From: an uncultured Acidobacteriia bacterium
Lineage (GTDB): Bacteria; Acidobacteriota; Terriglobia; Bryobacterales; Bryobacteraceae
NCBI GenBank assembly: GCA_903882645.1
Contig: CAIRXZ010000093.1
Span: forward strand, 1-32,525
Reading direction: 5' to 3'
DNA length: 32,525 nucleotides
Shown: one piece after another, positions 7,968 through 12,359 of the stretch
Numbering within the stretch: position 1 is the stretch's first letter
How the letters are laid out: each line of letters begins with the position of its first letter
Program-made: the position numbers and the translations under genes
The notes under the pieces: generated by a model
Databases searched by the model: none
What the model saw: only the letters and a program-made list of their open reading frames with translations
What the model was told of the DNA's origin: nothing

Positions 7968-8101
7968 GTGGATTCAACCTCGGGAAAGAAGAGATGGCGT
8001 AAGTCCTATGGTAGCACGAGGGTCAAAGGCAAGCCGCCGGCCTTCATCATTTGGCCGGCACGAATCCGGCAGCGTCGACAGTCGCGCCCGACGCGGTAGG
8101 T

Positions 8102-8107
8102 TAGAAT
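8102..8107 (+). promoter_or_regulatory. Possible -10 element for the kinase gene
   Basis: TAGAAT at 8102-8107 is a good -10 match 16 bases before the kinase ATG. No convincing -35 sits at the right distance (TCGACA at 8075 is 21 bases away), so this is a weak call. The 156-base gap 7968-8123 must also hold the divergent tig promoter, which I could not pick out. Confidence 0.25.
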
Positions 8108-8123
8108 ACGGCAGAGCACCGGC

Positions 8124-10544
8124 ATGAGCGGTTCGAGCGGCGGTTATTGTCCCATCTGCGAGAAGAATTACGGTTCCGACGCCGACCGCTGCCCCGTACA
8201 CGGGTTCCGCTTTCAGAGCCGCGACGCGCTCCGGCCCGGCGTCGTCATCGACGGCAAGTTCGAGATCCTGCAACGCCTCGGCGCCGGAGGCATGGGCGAA
8301 ACCCACCTCGTCCGCCATGCCTACCTCGGCGAGGAGTTGGTTCTCAAGCGCATCCGCCCCGAGCTGGCCGAGGACCCGCTGTATCAAAAGTCCTTCCTGC
8401 GCGAGGCCCACTCCCTGGCCGCGTTGCGCAAAGTGGCCGCGGTGGTGGAGATCCGCGACGCCTGGCAGACGAGCGAGGGGTACCTCGCACTGCTGCTCGA
8501 ATACGTCGAAGGCGGCAACCTGCTTCAGTGGCTGGACACCGCGCGGGGCGGCGGCCCGCTGGAAGTCACCGAAGCGGTGGCCATCGCGGCCGATCTGGCC
8601 AAGGCGCTGGCGGCGGCCCACGCCATTGGCATCCTGCACCGCGACGTAAAGCCGCAGAACATCCTGATGCGCCCGCTCGAGGGCGGCGCGTTCCAACTGA
8701 AGCTGTGCGACTTCGGGCTGGCGGTGCAGCGCGTGGAGGAGATGACGCGCCAAGGGACGGCGACTGCGGCCATGGGGACGCCCGGTTACGCGGCGCCGGA
8801 GCAGTTCGCGCTGCCGAGCCGGGAGCAGGACGCGCGAGTGGACGTATTCGGGTTGGGGATGACGCTCTACCGCCTGGTGGCCGGGCGGCTGCCGTGGGAC
8901 ACGAGCGCCGCGACCTGGCCGCTGGTTTGCAGGGAGCAACTGCGGAAGAGTCTGAAGGATCTGCGGCCGGCGCTGGCGGGAGAGCGCTGGCTGGAGAACC
9001 TGCTCGTGCGGCTGACGGCGGTCGAGCGCGACGACCGCATCGCGACCGCCGCGGAAGCTCTGGAGTTGATGCAGGAGGCGCTGGCTGAGACCAGGCCGGC
9101 GCTGGCGACGGTGGTTGTGCCGCAACCGAGCGTCCCGCCGCCGGTCGAGTTGCAGCAGTCCTCGCCACCTCCTCCGCGGGCGACCGACGTTGCAGTGACT
9201 CTGCCCGAGATGCCCGGCGGAACCGGTGAGGAGCGGCATGCGGAGTCAAGTGCCAGCGCGACGATGCCGGCTACCGTGCCGGCCCCCGCGGACGGCGAGA
9301 GCGCCGCGGGCCCGACGCTGCCGCCCGAGCCGACTCTCCCGCCGCCGGTGGGATTGGGGCCGAAGAGCCATTCGAAACGCACAATGGCGCTGGCCGTTTC
9401 CGGTTTCGCGGCAATCGCACTACTGATGTTCGTCTGGTGGGCGCTGCAAGGGCCGAAAGAGGTCCCCGACAATCCGCCCGCGCCGGTCGAGGAGGGCAAT
9501 CAGACGCCCGCGCCGCGTTCGGCGGCTCCTCACGTGGACGATGGATTCGTGCCTGATGCGCCGAGCAAACAGGCGCCGGCGCCGCGTCCCGTGCCTCCGT
9601 CTCAGGCTCCCGAGGAGCCAAACGGATCGTATTGGCAGGTCGGCGCCTTCAGGACCGCCGCGGAAGCGGAGCCGATGCTCCGGGCGCTTAGGGGCGGCGG
9701 CATGCCCGCGACCCTGAAATCGGACCCGAACGGATCGGCGCGCGTGCTGGTTGGGCCATATTCCGATGCGCAATCCCTGGGCCGCGCCAAGAACGAATTG
9801 GAAACCCACTTCGGGATCCGCAACCCCCGCGCTGTCCCAGCATCCACGAGCGCTTCCACCGCGGCGGCTGCCGTCGCGGCGGGTAGAGCGGGCGCAACAA
9901 AGGTTAACCCGAAGGATGGGCTCAGCTATGTCTGGATTCCGCCGGGAACGTTCATGATGGGCTGTTCGCCGGGGGACACGCAGTGCAGCTCAGATGAAAA
10001 GCCCGCACATCAGGTGACCATCACCAGGGGCTTTTGGTTCGGTCAGACGCCCGTGACCCAGCAGGCCTATCAGCGCGTCACAGGACAGAACCCGAGCCGT
10101 TTCAAGGGCGCTGATCTTCCCGTCGAGACCGTGAATTGGGACGAAGCGAAGGCTTACTGTGCAGCGGTCGGAGGGCGGCTGCCGACGGAAGCGGAGTGGG
10201 AGTACGCGGCGCGGGCCGGTTCCACGGGCGCCCGCTACGGCAATCTGGATAAGATTGCGTGGTACTCGGAGAACAGCGGCGGGAAGACTCACGAAGTAGG
10301 GCAAAAGCTGGCGAACGCCTTCGGGCTGTACGATATGTTGGGGAACGTGTGGCAGTGGGTCGCGGATTGGTCTGGGGAATACCAGCCCGGAGCGCAGGCC
10401 GATCCATCCGGGGCAGAGAGCGGCCCAGCGCCGCGCGGCGGTTCGTGGGACAGCTGGGAAGAAGAAATGCGCGTGTCGTACCGTCTCAGGGTCGACCCAG
10501 ACGTCCGCAACAACGGCATCGGCCTTCGGTGCGTCGGGGAATGA
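8124..10544 (+). CDS. Membrane Ser/Thr protein kinase with SPOR and FGE-sulfatase domains
   Basis: The 806-residue protein combines four modules. Residues 1-30 form a small zinc-ribbon-like motif (CPICEKNY, then CPVHGF). Residues about 43-320 are a Hanks-type kinase: glycine loop GAGGMGE, Lys75 in VLKRI, catalytic HRDVKPQN (His172-Asp174), DFG, and GTPGYAAPE. A Pro/Ala-rich linker leads to one membrane helix at about 420-441. Outside the membrane lie a SPOR domain (about 501-568, SYWQVGAFRTAAEAEPMLRAL) and an FGE-sulfatase/SUMF1 domain from about 595 (YVWIPPGTFMMG, VTQQAYQRVTG, RLPTEAEWEYAARAG, GLYDMLGNVWQW, RGGSWD). SPOR domains are known to bind denuded septal glycan; FGE-like domains oxidise Cys to formylglycine or act as ligand-binding folds. 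All kinase catalytic residues are present. It stands alone between divergent tig and convergent PIN genes. Confidence 0.93.
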   Translation: MSGSSGGYCPICEKNYGSDADRCPVHGFRFQSRDALRPGVVIDGKFEILQRLGAGGMGETHLVRHAYLGEELVLKRIRPELAEDPLYQKSFLREAHSLAALRKVAAVVEIRDAWQTSEGYLALLLEYVEGGNLLQWLDTARGGGPLEVTEAVAIAADLAKALAAAHAIGILHRDVKPQNILMRPLEGGAFQLKLCDFGLAVQRVEEMTRQGTATAAMGTPGYAAPEQFALPSREQDARVDVFGLGMTLYRLVAGRLPWDTSAATWPLVCREQLRKSLKDLRPALAGERWLENLLVRLTAVERDDRIATAAEALELMQEALAETRPALATVVVPQPSVPPPVELQQSSPPPPRATDVAVTLPEMPGGTGEERHAESSASATMPATVPAPADGESAAGPTLPPEPTLPPPVGLGPKSHSKRTMALAVSGFAAIALLMFVWWALQGPKEVPDNPPAPVEEGNQTPAPRSAAPHVDDGFVPDAPSKQAPAPRPVPPSQAPEEPNGSYWQVGAFRTAAEAEPMLRALRGGGMPATLKSDPNGSARVLVGPYSDAQSLGRAKNELETHFGIRNPRAVPASTSASTAAAAVAAGRAGATKVNPKDGLSYVWIPPGTFMMGCSPGDTQCSSDEKPAHQVTITRGFWFGQTPVTQQAYQRVTGQNPSRFKGADLPVETVNWDEAKAYCAAVGGRLPTEAEWEYAARAGSTGARYGNLDKIAWYSENSGGKTHEVGQKLANAFGLYDMLGNVWQWVADWSGEYQPGAQADPSGAESGPAPRGGSWDSWEEEMRVSYRLRVDPDVRNNGIGLRCVGE

Positions 10545-10558: not shown

Positions 10559-11011
10559 TTACGCTTGCTCCTGAGGATCGACTACGGCCAAACCGGCATT
10601 GAGCGCCGCGGCCTTCAGCTCACGATCCGAGGTGACCAGTGCGAACTCCCGGGAGTCGGGCTCAAGCTGCTCTTTCAGCACCAGGGCTGAGGCCAAATGC
10701 AGGCTATCGGCGCCGCGGAGACCATATGCGCCGGTGGCATCAAACGCACGAAGCACCACCGATGGGGTTACGTCTATTCGCAGAAAACGCTGCCAGTCCT
10801 TGAGTAGCGAAGCCCGCTTCGGCTCAAACTCCTCGTGGGTCATCTCTCCGGCGTTCCGCTTACGCGCCATCGTGGCGCCGACCTCGATAAACCCCAGCGG
10901 AGAACAGGCCATTACCGAGAGTTGATCGAACAACGCGTCCACTGCTTCGCTGCCAGTCTCTTGGAAATACCGCTTCGCCCAAGCGCTGGAATCCAGATAA
11001 TAGAGCATCAT
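10559..11011 (-). CDS. PIN-domain ribonuclease toxin (VapC-like)
   Basis: The 150-residue protein has the PIN fold acidic residues: Asp7 in YYLDSSA, Glu43 in FIEVG, Asp102 in GADSLHLASA and Asp129 in TSDREL. PIN toxins are Mg-dependent RNases that are held inactive by a co-expressed antitoxin. The gene starts with two ATG codons, and its start overlaps the antitoxin stop by four bases (ATGA), indicating translational coupling. It converges with the kinase gene. A degraded second copy of the same pair lies about 1.1 kb to the right. The fold call is secure; the RNA target is unknown. Confidence 0.85.
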   Translation of the reverse strand: MMLYYLDSSAWAKRYFQETGSEAVDALFDQLSVMACSPLGFIEVGATMARKRNAGEMTHEEFEPKRASLLKDWQRFLRIDVTPSVVLRAFDATGAYGLRGADSLHLASALVLKEQLEPDSREFALVTSDRELKAAALNAGLAVVDPQEQA

Positions 11012-11223
11012 CGACGGTCGGCGATCAGCAGCTCCGAGGCCGGAATGCCACGGGTCGCGATGCGCTCCAGTTTCTCGAATGGCGGCGCTCCCGGATCCGG
11101 AACATGGATTCCCGGGCGGCCCGCCAACCGTTCGATCAGATCCTCCCGTGTCAGTTTCGGCATCTGCAACCCGATTCCCGTAGCCTGCTTTCTCTTGAGC
11201 AGATCGAGGACTTCACGGGCATC
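10968..11223 (-). repeat. Toxin-antitoxin duplication, copy 1 (256 bp)
   Basis: Bases 10968-11223 and 12104-12359 align without gaps and differ at about eight positions by eye. They cover most of the antitoxin gene and the first codons of the PIN toxin in direct orientation, about 1.14 kb apart. Beyond the left edge the similarity continues at a lower level into the toxin; beyond the right edge it stops abruptly. Confidence 0.85.
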
Positions 11224-11277: not shown

Positions 11278-11441
11278 AATCTCCGCCTTCTTTGGCGCGT
11301 CGAACCCTTGGCCCGACGATGCCTGTCTTCAGTTTGCCACACCTGCGCCGGGGGAAACGGGGCAGTCCGCCTCTTCGAAGTTCACACGGGCGCTCTACCC
11401 GTCCCCCTTCCCGCCCCCCTGCTATCATCTTCAGTATCCGA

Positions 11442-11608
11442 ATGAACCCCGATTTTCTGGTGATCGGAGCCGGTGTCGCCGGGTTGCGCGCGGCTATCGA
11501 GCTGGCTGACGCGGGCAGGGTGCTGGTGGTCGCCAAGGACAGCCTCATGGAACCCTCCTCCGAATATGCGCAGGGCGGCATCGCCGTCGCGCTGAGCGAC
11601 GACGAGGT
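11442..11608 (+). pseudogene. nadB: L-aspartate oxidase (NadB), N-terminal stub
   Basis: From the ATG at 11442 the frame reads MNPDFLVIGAGVAGLRAA, an FAD-binding Rossmann start. It continues with the flavoprotein segment EPSSEYAQGGIAVALSDDEV, which closely resembles the start of L-aspartate oxidase, the first enzyme of NAD synthesis. Similarity ends at about 11608, where the frame becomes FLGKSSHLQ and then stops at 11705. The remaining 450 or so residues are not found downstream. The stub retains the dinucleotide motif but no catalytic domain, so it should be non-functional. A second, complete nadB elsewhere would be expected if the organism makes NAD from aspartate. Confidence 0.7.
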
Positions 11609-11659
11609 CCGTTTTTTGGGGAAAAGTTCCCATTTGCAGCTTCTTGCAGCCCGGCCCTT

Positions 11660-11989
11660 CTACTGCGCGGGGCGTTGGCGCTTGAGCTCGGCGATTTGGG
11701 CGTAAAGATCGTCGATGGCGCGTTGTTGGGCGGCCTGGGCGGCGGCGAAGGCGGTGTCGATGCGCTCGGCGTCGGTTAGCGACTTGCTCGTGCCGATGGT
11801 GTGCTACTCGACGCGTTCGAGGCGGCGCTCGACCGTGTCGAAGCGCTGGCCGACGTGGGCGAAGCGGGCGTTCATCTCCTGCCGGAAATCGGAGATGTTG
11901 CCGATGATGGCTTCAGCGAAGCGGTCCAGGCGGGCGGTGAGTTCGGCGGAGACGATGGAACGGATCTGGTTCAAGTCTTCTTCGGTCAT
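11660..11989 (-). pseudogene. Small coiled-coil protein gene interrupted by an in-frame TAG
   Basis: From the ATG at 11989 the frame encodes MTEEDLNQIRSIVSAEL and a heptad-rich helix (FRQEMNARFAHVGQRFDTVERRLERVE), then stops at a TAG at 11804-11806. In the same frame the coding pattern resumes at once with HTIGTSKSLTDAERIDTAF and a second helical segment, ending in KRQRPAQ and a TAG at 11660. Without the internal TAG the product would be 109 residues, a fully helical protein of unknown function. A single change from TAC or another sense codon would explain the break. It sits between the nadB stub and the degraded toxin copy, in a region of general decay. Confidence 0.6.
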
Positions 11990-12071: not shown

Positions 12072-12142
12072 GCCAGTACCGGGACTTGTTCGAACAAGAC
12101 CTCTACCGCTTCGCCCAAGCGCTGGAATCCGGATAATAGAGC
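12072..12142 (-). pseudogene. PIN toxin relic with a 28-base deletion
   Basis: Read leftward from the ATG at 12142, the relic begins MMLYYPDSSAWAKR and then meets TAG. Shifted by one frame it continues EAVEVLFEQVPVLAYS, matching EAVDALFDQLSVMACS of the intact toxin at 10559-11011. The missing 28 bases lie between GCGAAGCGGT and GCGAAGCAGT in the intact copy, so the deletion probably arose by recombination or slippage between these short repeats. Similarity ends near 12072. The product would lack almost all of the PIN domain. Confidence 0.75.
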
Positions 12143-12359
12143 ATCATCGACGGCCGGCGATCGGCAGCTCCGAGGCGGGAATGCCACGGGTCGCGATGCG
12201 CTCCAGTTTCTCGAATGGCGGCGCTCCCGGGTCCGGAACATGGATTCCCGGGCGGCCCGCCAACCGTTCGATCAGATCCTCCCGTGTCCGTTTCGGCGCC
12301 TGCAACCCGATTCCCGTAGCCTGCTTTCTCTTGAGCAGATCGAGGACTTCACGGGCATC
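12104..12359 (-). repeat. Toxin-antitoxin duplication, copy 2 (256 bp)
   Basis: This is the partner of 10968-11223: the same length, the same orientation and about 97% identical by eye. It carries the antitoxin body and the toxin start codons. Similarity to copy 1 ends at GGGCATC, position 12359. Confidence 0.85.

Follow-up and report, generated by a model that had tools for sequence, protein, structure and literature searches.

A candidate receptor Ser/Thr kinase combining a SPOR domain with an FGE domain probably shaped by a diversity-generating retroelement

The window, a stretch of 32,525 nucleotides from one draft assembly (366 contigs, 5.3 Mb), carries a gene in which we observed kinase, SPOR and FGE-sulfatase domains, a topology signal, a SPOR fold, an adenine-biased match to the template repeat (TR) of a diversity-generating retroelement (DGR), and paralogues of all three modules in the same genome. 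We consider it rather probable that the product is a bitopic receptor Ser/Thr kinase assembled from three modules, possibly tethered by its SPOR domain and sensing through a DGR-shaped FGE pocket. Tethering to septal glycan, activation by a ligand and past rewriting of the gene by a DGR are what we infer for it. The features of the gene are listed in Table 1.

Table 1. Features of the kinase–SPOR–FGE gene and their positions in the window
Feature	Position	Strand	Basis or remark
Whole gene: zinc-ribbon-like motif, Ser/Thr kinase, transmembrane helix (TM), SPOR, FGE	8124..10544	+	806 aa
Kinase cassette: ~30 bp upstream plus first ~330 codons (approximate ends)	8092..9120	+	DNA comparison of four loci
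CPIC...CPVH zinc-ribbon-like motif, aa 9–26	8148..8201	+	By reading the sequence
Hanks-type kinase domain, aa 46–310	8259..9053	+	Pfam and PknB alignment
Transmembrane helix, about aa 420–441	9381..9446	+	Hydropathy; limits by eye
SPOR fold, about aa 502–572 (Pfam match 9636–9803)	9627..9840	+	Pfam, AF2, structure comparison
FGE-sulfatase (C-type-lectin-like) domain, aa 602–804	9927..10535	+	Pfam, AF2, PDB comparison
Variable-region-like segment, ~114 bases, matching TR G000:C358:1907–2020	10427..10540	+	DNA search, TR alignment
Inverted repeat GGGGAA-TGAC-TTCCCC across the stop codon	10536..10551	+	Near the usual DGR target hairpin site

Domain architecture, topology and the SPOR domain

The gene starts with ATG, and a single open frame of 814 codons spans all modules. 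The first-pass annotation had described an intact cytoplasmic kinase with an N-terminal zinc-ribbon motif, one membrane helix, and SPOR and FGE-sulfatase domains outside the membrane, and this description held. The Pfam Pkinase model matched over its cut-off (E 1.2e-38), and in the alignment to PknB, the nearest PDB match of the kinase domain, the VLK lysine, HRDVKPQN, DFG and APE were all present. The zinc-ribbon-like motif was read from the letters, and no Pfam model matched it in the scan of the 806-aa protein. Hydropathy revealed one hydrophobic helix, centred near aa 428 and preceded by HSKR; by the positive-inside rule, the kinase would be cytoplasmic and the Pfam-matched SPOR and FGE domains would lie outside the membrane. 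No PASTA domain was matched by Pfam in the protein, and the model NF033483 (PASTA kinase PknB/StkP) scored 176 bits, below its cut-off of 450.

The annotation had let its reading stand or fall with a true SPOR fold, and such a fold was found. The Pfam SPOR model matched aa 505–560 with 29.9 bits (cut-off 21). The AF2 model of the SPOR domain alone had the order beta-alpha-beta-beta-alpha-beta, with a mean pLDDT of 79 and ten-residue blocks of 76–89 over the domain. In VIA-align, this model was superposed on the RlpA SPOR–glycan complex 6i09 over 73 residues with Z 10.4 and rmsd 1.8, followed by RlpA apo (Z 10.3), 6ozd, an exported protein of 523 aa (9.8), CwlC (9.5) and DedD (8.1). The SPOR domains of DamX (5.8) and FtsN (5.7) lay amid unrelated folds, which start at 6.2. 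Foldseek gave a best E of just 2.2e-3, and ranks 1–4 were SPOR chains (1x60, DedD, RlpA). When the residues that PMC6895207 presents as important for glycan binding in FtsN and RlpA were taken as the basis of a site comparison, two of three were kept: Q and R are present, and Ser stands at the W283/L307 position.

The window SPOR is a paralogue of a standalone bitopic SPOR protein of the same genome (C264:8009–8599). The G001 standalone protein (TM, Pro/Ala linker, SPOR) is 64% identical to this C264 counterpart and 50% identical to the linker plus SPOR of the window protein. Identities of the window SPOR to four standalone proteins of the genus ranged from 34/70 to 41/69, the highest being that to G001, slightly above the own-genome C264 copy (36/66). 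By its sequence, the SPOR part appears to derive from an FtsN-like protein of the genus. In the genomes of loci L265 (3007–3615) and L254 (2718–3338), the standalone FtsN-like SPOR gene stands 3' of an NfeD-like gene and 5' of a lipoyl-synthase-like gene, and in L254 an SPFH-like gene also lies upstream (neighbour names by eye in both).

The SPOR domain could itself do the sensing and signal to the kinase how much denuded septal glycan is present, with the FGE domain as an accessory. The SPOR fold, the two retained glycan-site residues (Q and R) and the FtsN-like origin speak for this explanation, but we regard it as doubtful, as the variability footprint sits in the FGE domain and the kinase–FGE relatives lack SPOR. 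Among the loci sampled, there were 12 distinct ORFs with kinase and FGE besides the window; SPOR was found by Pfam in none of the 10 scanned, and the other two were checked with our own SPOR profile. Kinase plus FGE therefore exists without SPOR. Of the proposal in the first-pass annotation, a receptor kinase that reads septal peptidoglycan, the topology and the genuine SPOR fold stood, whereas the FGE domain with its DGR footprint is the likelier sensor. More likely, SPOR serves as the anchor, and FGE senses another ligand, which is variable.

Adenine-biased variation at the 3' end and the retroelements of the genome

RVT_1 had 13 matches in the genome of the window. Five of these RTs adjoin FGE genes as well as a template repeat, in which the FGE 3' end is duplicated over a short length, giving five DGRs at G000:C277, C293, C184, C313 and C358 (L051, L054, L052, L053 and L040, respectively). 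Between TR and variable region (VR) at C358, mismatches occurred at 20/32 adenines and 0/82 other bases, comprising 19 substitutions and one gap. The corresponding values were 20/31 and 0/87, and 25/31 and 0/88, for the two VRs of C277; 18/32 and 1/97, and 24/32 and 6/97, for the two of C293; 15/29 and 0/78 for C184; and 7/11 and 0/44 for C313. A separate ungapped scan revealed the same five places with 1–2 non-adenine mismatches per pair (C313, 19/30 adenines and 1 other). The C358 element consists of an RT with LGNQTSQ, which is a form of the DGR RT motif (PMC3521204), bAvd (E 8.6e-17), the TR and the target. Its VR (L040 2153–2250) differs from the TR in length by one base, at an adenine, so the C358 protein ends in another frame than its paralogues. 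NACHT-FGE proteins are the targets at C277 (two), C184 and C313, and the DGR targets include SIR2-NACHT-FGE, NNH2-NACHT-FGE, DUF4062-NACHT-FGE and metallophosphatase-NACHT-FGE.

The 3' end of the window gene matched the C358 TR at 78/105 positions of a gapless alignment of 105 nt, with mismatches at 17/30 adenines and 10/75 other bases (p=1.3e-5). At codon positions 1 and 2, 16/28 TR adenines were changed and 4/42 other bases. In the FGE body, used as a control with C358 as a pseudo-template and the same codon positions, changes were found at 15/96 adenines and 22/256 other bases (p=0.046), and the same control in three remote paralogues showed a mild adenine excess (p 0.007–0.065). These paralogues, C313:30428, C190 and C136, are located away from the RVT_1 matches of the genome, and each differed from the TR at 23/30 adenines and at 13, 9 and 15 of 75 other bases, respectively. 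The variable segment of the window gene differed from the VR of C358 at 22/31 adenine sites and 12/78 others, and between the two gene bodies third positions diverged by 24%. Between paralogues, 18–24 of 31–33 adenine sites, 12–22 of 78–82 others and 20–29% of FGE-body third positions differed. As the adenine sites diverged more than third positions, they changed after the paralogues split and faster than near-neutral sites.

Could the adenine pattern reflect ordinary positive or relaxed selection on FGE loop codons, with likeness to the TR due to shared ancestry only? The non-adenine part of the variable segment diverges on par with the gene body, the body control has its mild adenine excess, and the window has no adjacent TR or RT, all of which agree with this explanation. 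Against it, the 16/28 changes at TR adenines versus 4/42 elsewhere exceed the 24% third-position divergence, and the same genome has DGRs with FGE targets; we judge ordinary selection unlikely.

Past DGR diversification is the reading we prefer for the window gene, which now may be silent or served by a lost or unassembled TR. The criterion given in PMC7517822 for a remote variable protein is at least 50% nucleotide identity to a DGR of the same genome; the 3' segment of the window is above this value (78/105), with a C-terminal CLec/FGE domain and differences concentrated at adenines. By sequence, "remote DGR variable protein" is the most fitting name for the product of the window gene, and its sensor is probably a resting DGR target. 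Recent rewriting by the C358 TR was rejected: the window differs from this TR at 10/75 non-adenine positions, close to the rate seen in the gene body, against 0/82 in the C358 target, so the present TR is no recent rewriter of the window. The scan of the window found no TR, RVT_1 had no match on its contig, and DNA searches of the assembly and of 150 relatives yielded no closer TR. A paralogue with remnant TR–VR homology and no RT nearby is described for Nostoc in PMC7517822.

The hairpin across the stop codon has a 6-bp stem and a TGAC loop and was equalled in 3% of shuffles; the consensus with which we compared it, a 7–10 bp stem with a GRNA loop 3' of the VR, is that of phage (PMC3240598). 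Such hairpins occurred at 8/67 FGE ends and 0/67 upstream controls (shuffles, 2.8%), and with 8/67 the idea that FGE genes generally carry this hairpin is unsupported. In C358, C313, C136 and G069, the hairpin is followed by a T/C-rich tract, which the window lacks.

When the 213 FGE columns of 36 family members were ranked by variability, the top 30 included 11 of the 12 columns that correspond to AAN codons in the TR, and the mean entropy was 3.29 over all 12 versus 1.43 in the FGE body. The other 19 of these 30 columns lie elsewhere than at TR AAN codons. As the 36 members were picked by similarity to the window and many are possibly DGR targets, these values describe family-wide variability and are no proof of DGR action at the window.

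Module paralogues, locus and occurrence of the architecture

Each module of the window gene, kinase, SPOR and FGE, has paralogues in the same genome. The kinase cassette is common to the window and three other loci, with DNA identities of 80–98% per 60-column block that fall to 30–55% per block outside it, more gradually on the 3' side in C8. The four kinases are 87–89% identical over aa 1–322 to 1–331. Their tails are different: SPOR-FGE in the window; a weak TPR match in C287; a TPR-like tail by eye in C313, where a distinct FGE gene comes next and has a signal-like N-terminus; and Sel1 repeats that run off the contig end in C8.

The gene order tig-clpX-lon-rho is kept in G001, G003 and G005 (rho is cut by the locus end in G003 and G005), and the 12 kb of G006 contain tig alone of these four. 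The window gene was absent next to tig in all four genomes, and different genes stand upstream of tig in G001 and G003. In G001, another FGE gene lies ~7 kb from tig and is 42% identical in the FGE domain. Downstream of the window gene, positions 10968–11223 and 12104–12359 form a 256-nt direct repeat (97% identical) flanking a short FAD-binding fragment at 11292–11705, seemingly a nadB-type gene (name given by eye) in truncated form. A PIN-domain gene at 10559–11011 adjoins the repeat and the FAD fragment.

A second Pkinase-SPOR-FGE protein was found in none of 273 loci, many of them overlapping, which were sampled around FGE, kinase and SPOR matches rather than from whole genomes. Frames shorter than 390 aa are too short to contain all three domains, and in the 46 genomes with SPOR matches listed, all 8 non-window regions with SPOR frames of at least 390 aa were without kinase or FGE. 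Five apparent SPOR+FGE profile rows were rejected as a standalone SPOR protein plus an artefact, since profile A1 contains those proteins, and G060:C229, which aligned to nearly the entire SPOR-FGE query, had no SPOR in Pfam. The architecture was seen once, in a variable stretch with the truncated FAD-protein fragment and the 256-nt duplication, and the genes upstream of tig differ in G001 and G003, as would suit an accidental, functionless fusion or a contig artefact. We consider this quite unlikely, given the open frame across all modules and the intact catalytic motifs; moreover, the modules differ from their paralogues at the DNA level, which argues against repeat collapse.

Six of the 12 kinase–FGE ORFs have a TM by hydropathy. 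A TR lay beside one of the 11 scanned (L036 was left out), in loci of a few kb each, from which a distant TR would escape. This one, G069:C317 (L274 6150–9431), is a kinase-TM-FGE protein of 1016 aa whose TR lies 117 bases past the VR and differs from it at 23 adenines and 2 other bases. A bAvd-like ORF was noted there by eye, and the 16.8-kb contig has no RT with an SQ motif.

In the open-access literature, we found no described kinase-SPOR-FGE protein and no paper treating a SPOR domain together with a Hanks-type kinase, and the main text of PMC8144416 has no mention of kinase, FGE, formylglycine or Acidobacteri. This agrees with the annotators, who knew of no described case. The kinase-SPOR-FGE combination looks new, and proteins joining a kinase with a variable sensor were already known.

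The FGE sensor, a proposed mechanism and known systems

The FGE-sulfatase model of Pfam matched with E 2.1e-44. In the AF2 ectodomain model (mean pLDDT 81), the ten-residue blocks of FGE were mostly 90–99, with two at 85 and 70. A PDB sequence search placed TvpA (2y3c) best (3.1e-31), ahead of true FGEs; by Foldseek, PvdO 5hha was top, TvpA ranked 3 and human FGE came after TvpA. FGE had 18 matches genome-wide, relatives were found in 125/151 genomes (the window's own counted in), and the nearest named relatives are Acidobacteriota. In true formylglycine-generating enzymes, a Cys pair forms the copper site. These cysteines, whose presence the first-pass annotation had left to be checked, are absent from the window in the alignment to true FGEs: the segment is shortened and cysteine-free, RGGSW---DSWEEEMRV versus RGGSYLCHDSYCNRYRV of 6muj. 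No C-x4-C pair was present in the last 40 aa of 66 family segments, some of which end before the C-terminus.

That the FGE domain catalyses formylglycine formation or a PvdO/EgtB-like reaction, and controls the kinase or is controlled by it, is highly improbable: despite the PvdO top hit and the high FGE profile score, the domain lacks the C-x4-C segment that true FGEs have, and few parts of the family vary as much as the corresponding loop. With no copper-site cysteines, TvpA as the best match and the adenine-biased TR match, the window FGE looks like a ligand-binding domain of the variable-protein type rather than a formylglycine-type enzyme.

We propose that an upstream-plus-kinase cassette, occurring in four loci with different tails, would have supplied the first module; the linker and SPOR of an FtsN-like protein the second, which may anchor the ectodomain on amidase-stripped septal glycan; and a family of DGR variable proteins the third, its ligand-binding FGE/C-type-lectin domain. 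The model for PknB-type receptors is that a ligand alters dimerisation and thereby activates the kinase. Likewise, ligand bound by the variable FGE pocket could shift dimerisation and turn on the cytoplasmic kinase. More tentatively, the window protein might be a septum-tethered receptor kinase with a DGR-generated extracellular pocket, in which tails swapped on the common cassette yield a receptor repertoire; in this case, the bacterium would combine kinase signalling from the division site with the random diversity of sensors that its NACHT-FGE proteins also have.

The protein joins three usually separate topics: sensors diversified by DGRs, signalling through transmembrane Ser/Thr kinases, and the recognition of septal glycan. 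If our reading is true, the use of DGR-type sensors extends beyond cytoplasmic conflict systems to kinases that carry them on the outer side of the membrane. One kinase cassette with four tails shows a route by which such receptors originate through module swapping, and G069:C317, a kinase-TM-FGE gene whose neighbouring TR is almost exact, opens the DGR–kinase idea to test.

Like FtsN-like SPOR proteins, the window protein is bitopic with a Pro/Ala linker and SPOR, whereas in the standalone forms the cytoplasmic part is a short tail, and kinase and FGE are both absent. The PASTA receptor kinases PknB and StkP have a wall-binding ectodomain; they share with the window protein a kinase, one TM and an ectodomain, which in the window is SPOR-FGE instead of PASTA. 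TvpA, a Treponema denticola variable protein, is the best PDB sequence match and a close fold of the window FGE, but its 294-residue PDB chain has no kinase or SPOR parts. The NACHT/STAND-FGE antigen sensors of Thiohalocapsa, as presented in PMC10907252, also use an FGE-type CLec as the variable C-terminal sensor, and the genome of the window, like Thiohalocapsa, has NACHT-FGE targets with TRs; the effector is a NACHT ATPase there and a membrane kinase in the window. A kinase with CLec as a DGR target has already been published for cyanobacteria (PMC7517822). As described there, these proteins share with the window a Hanks-type kinase, a C-terminal FGE/CLec, a 3' end matching a same-genome TR, and dispersed paralogues with remnant TR–VR homology. 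However, they are mostly predicted to be cytosolic, whereas the window protein would be a single-pass receptor with its sensor outside, probably from Acidobacteriota, with SPOR inserted and its kinase common to four loci.
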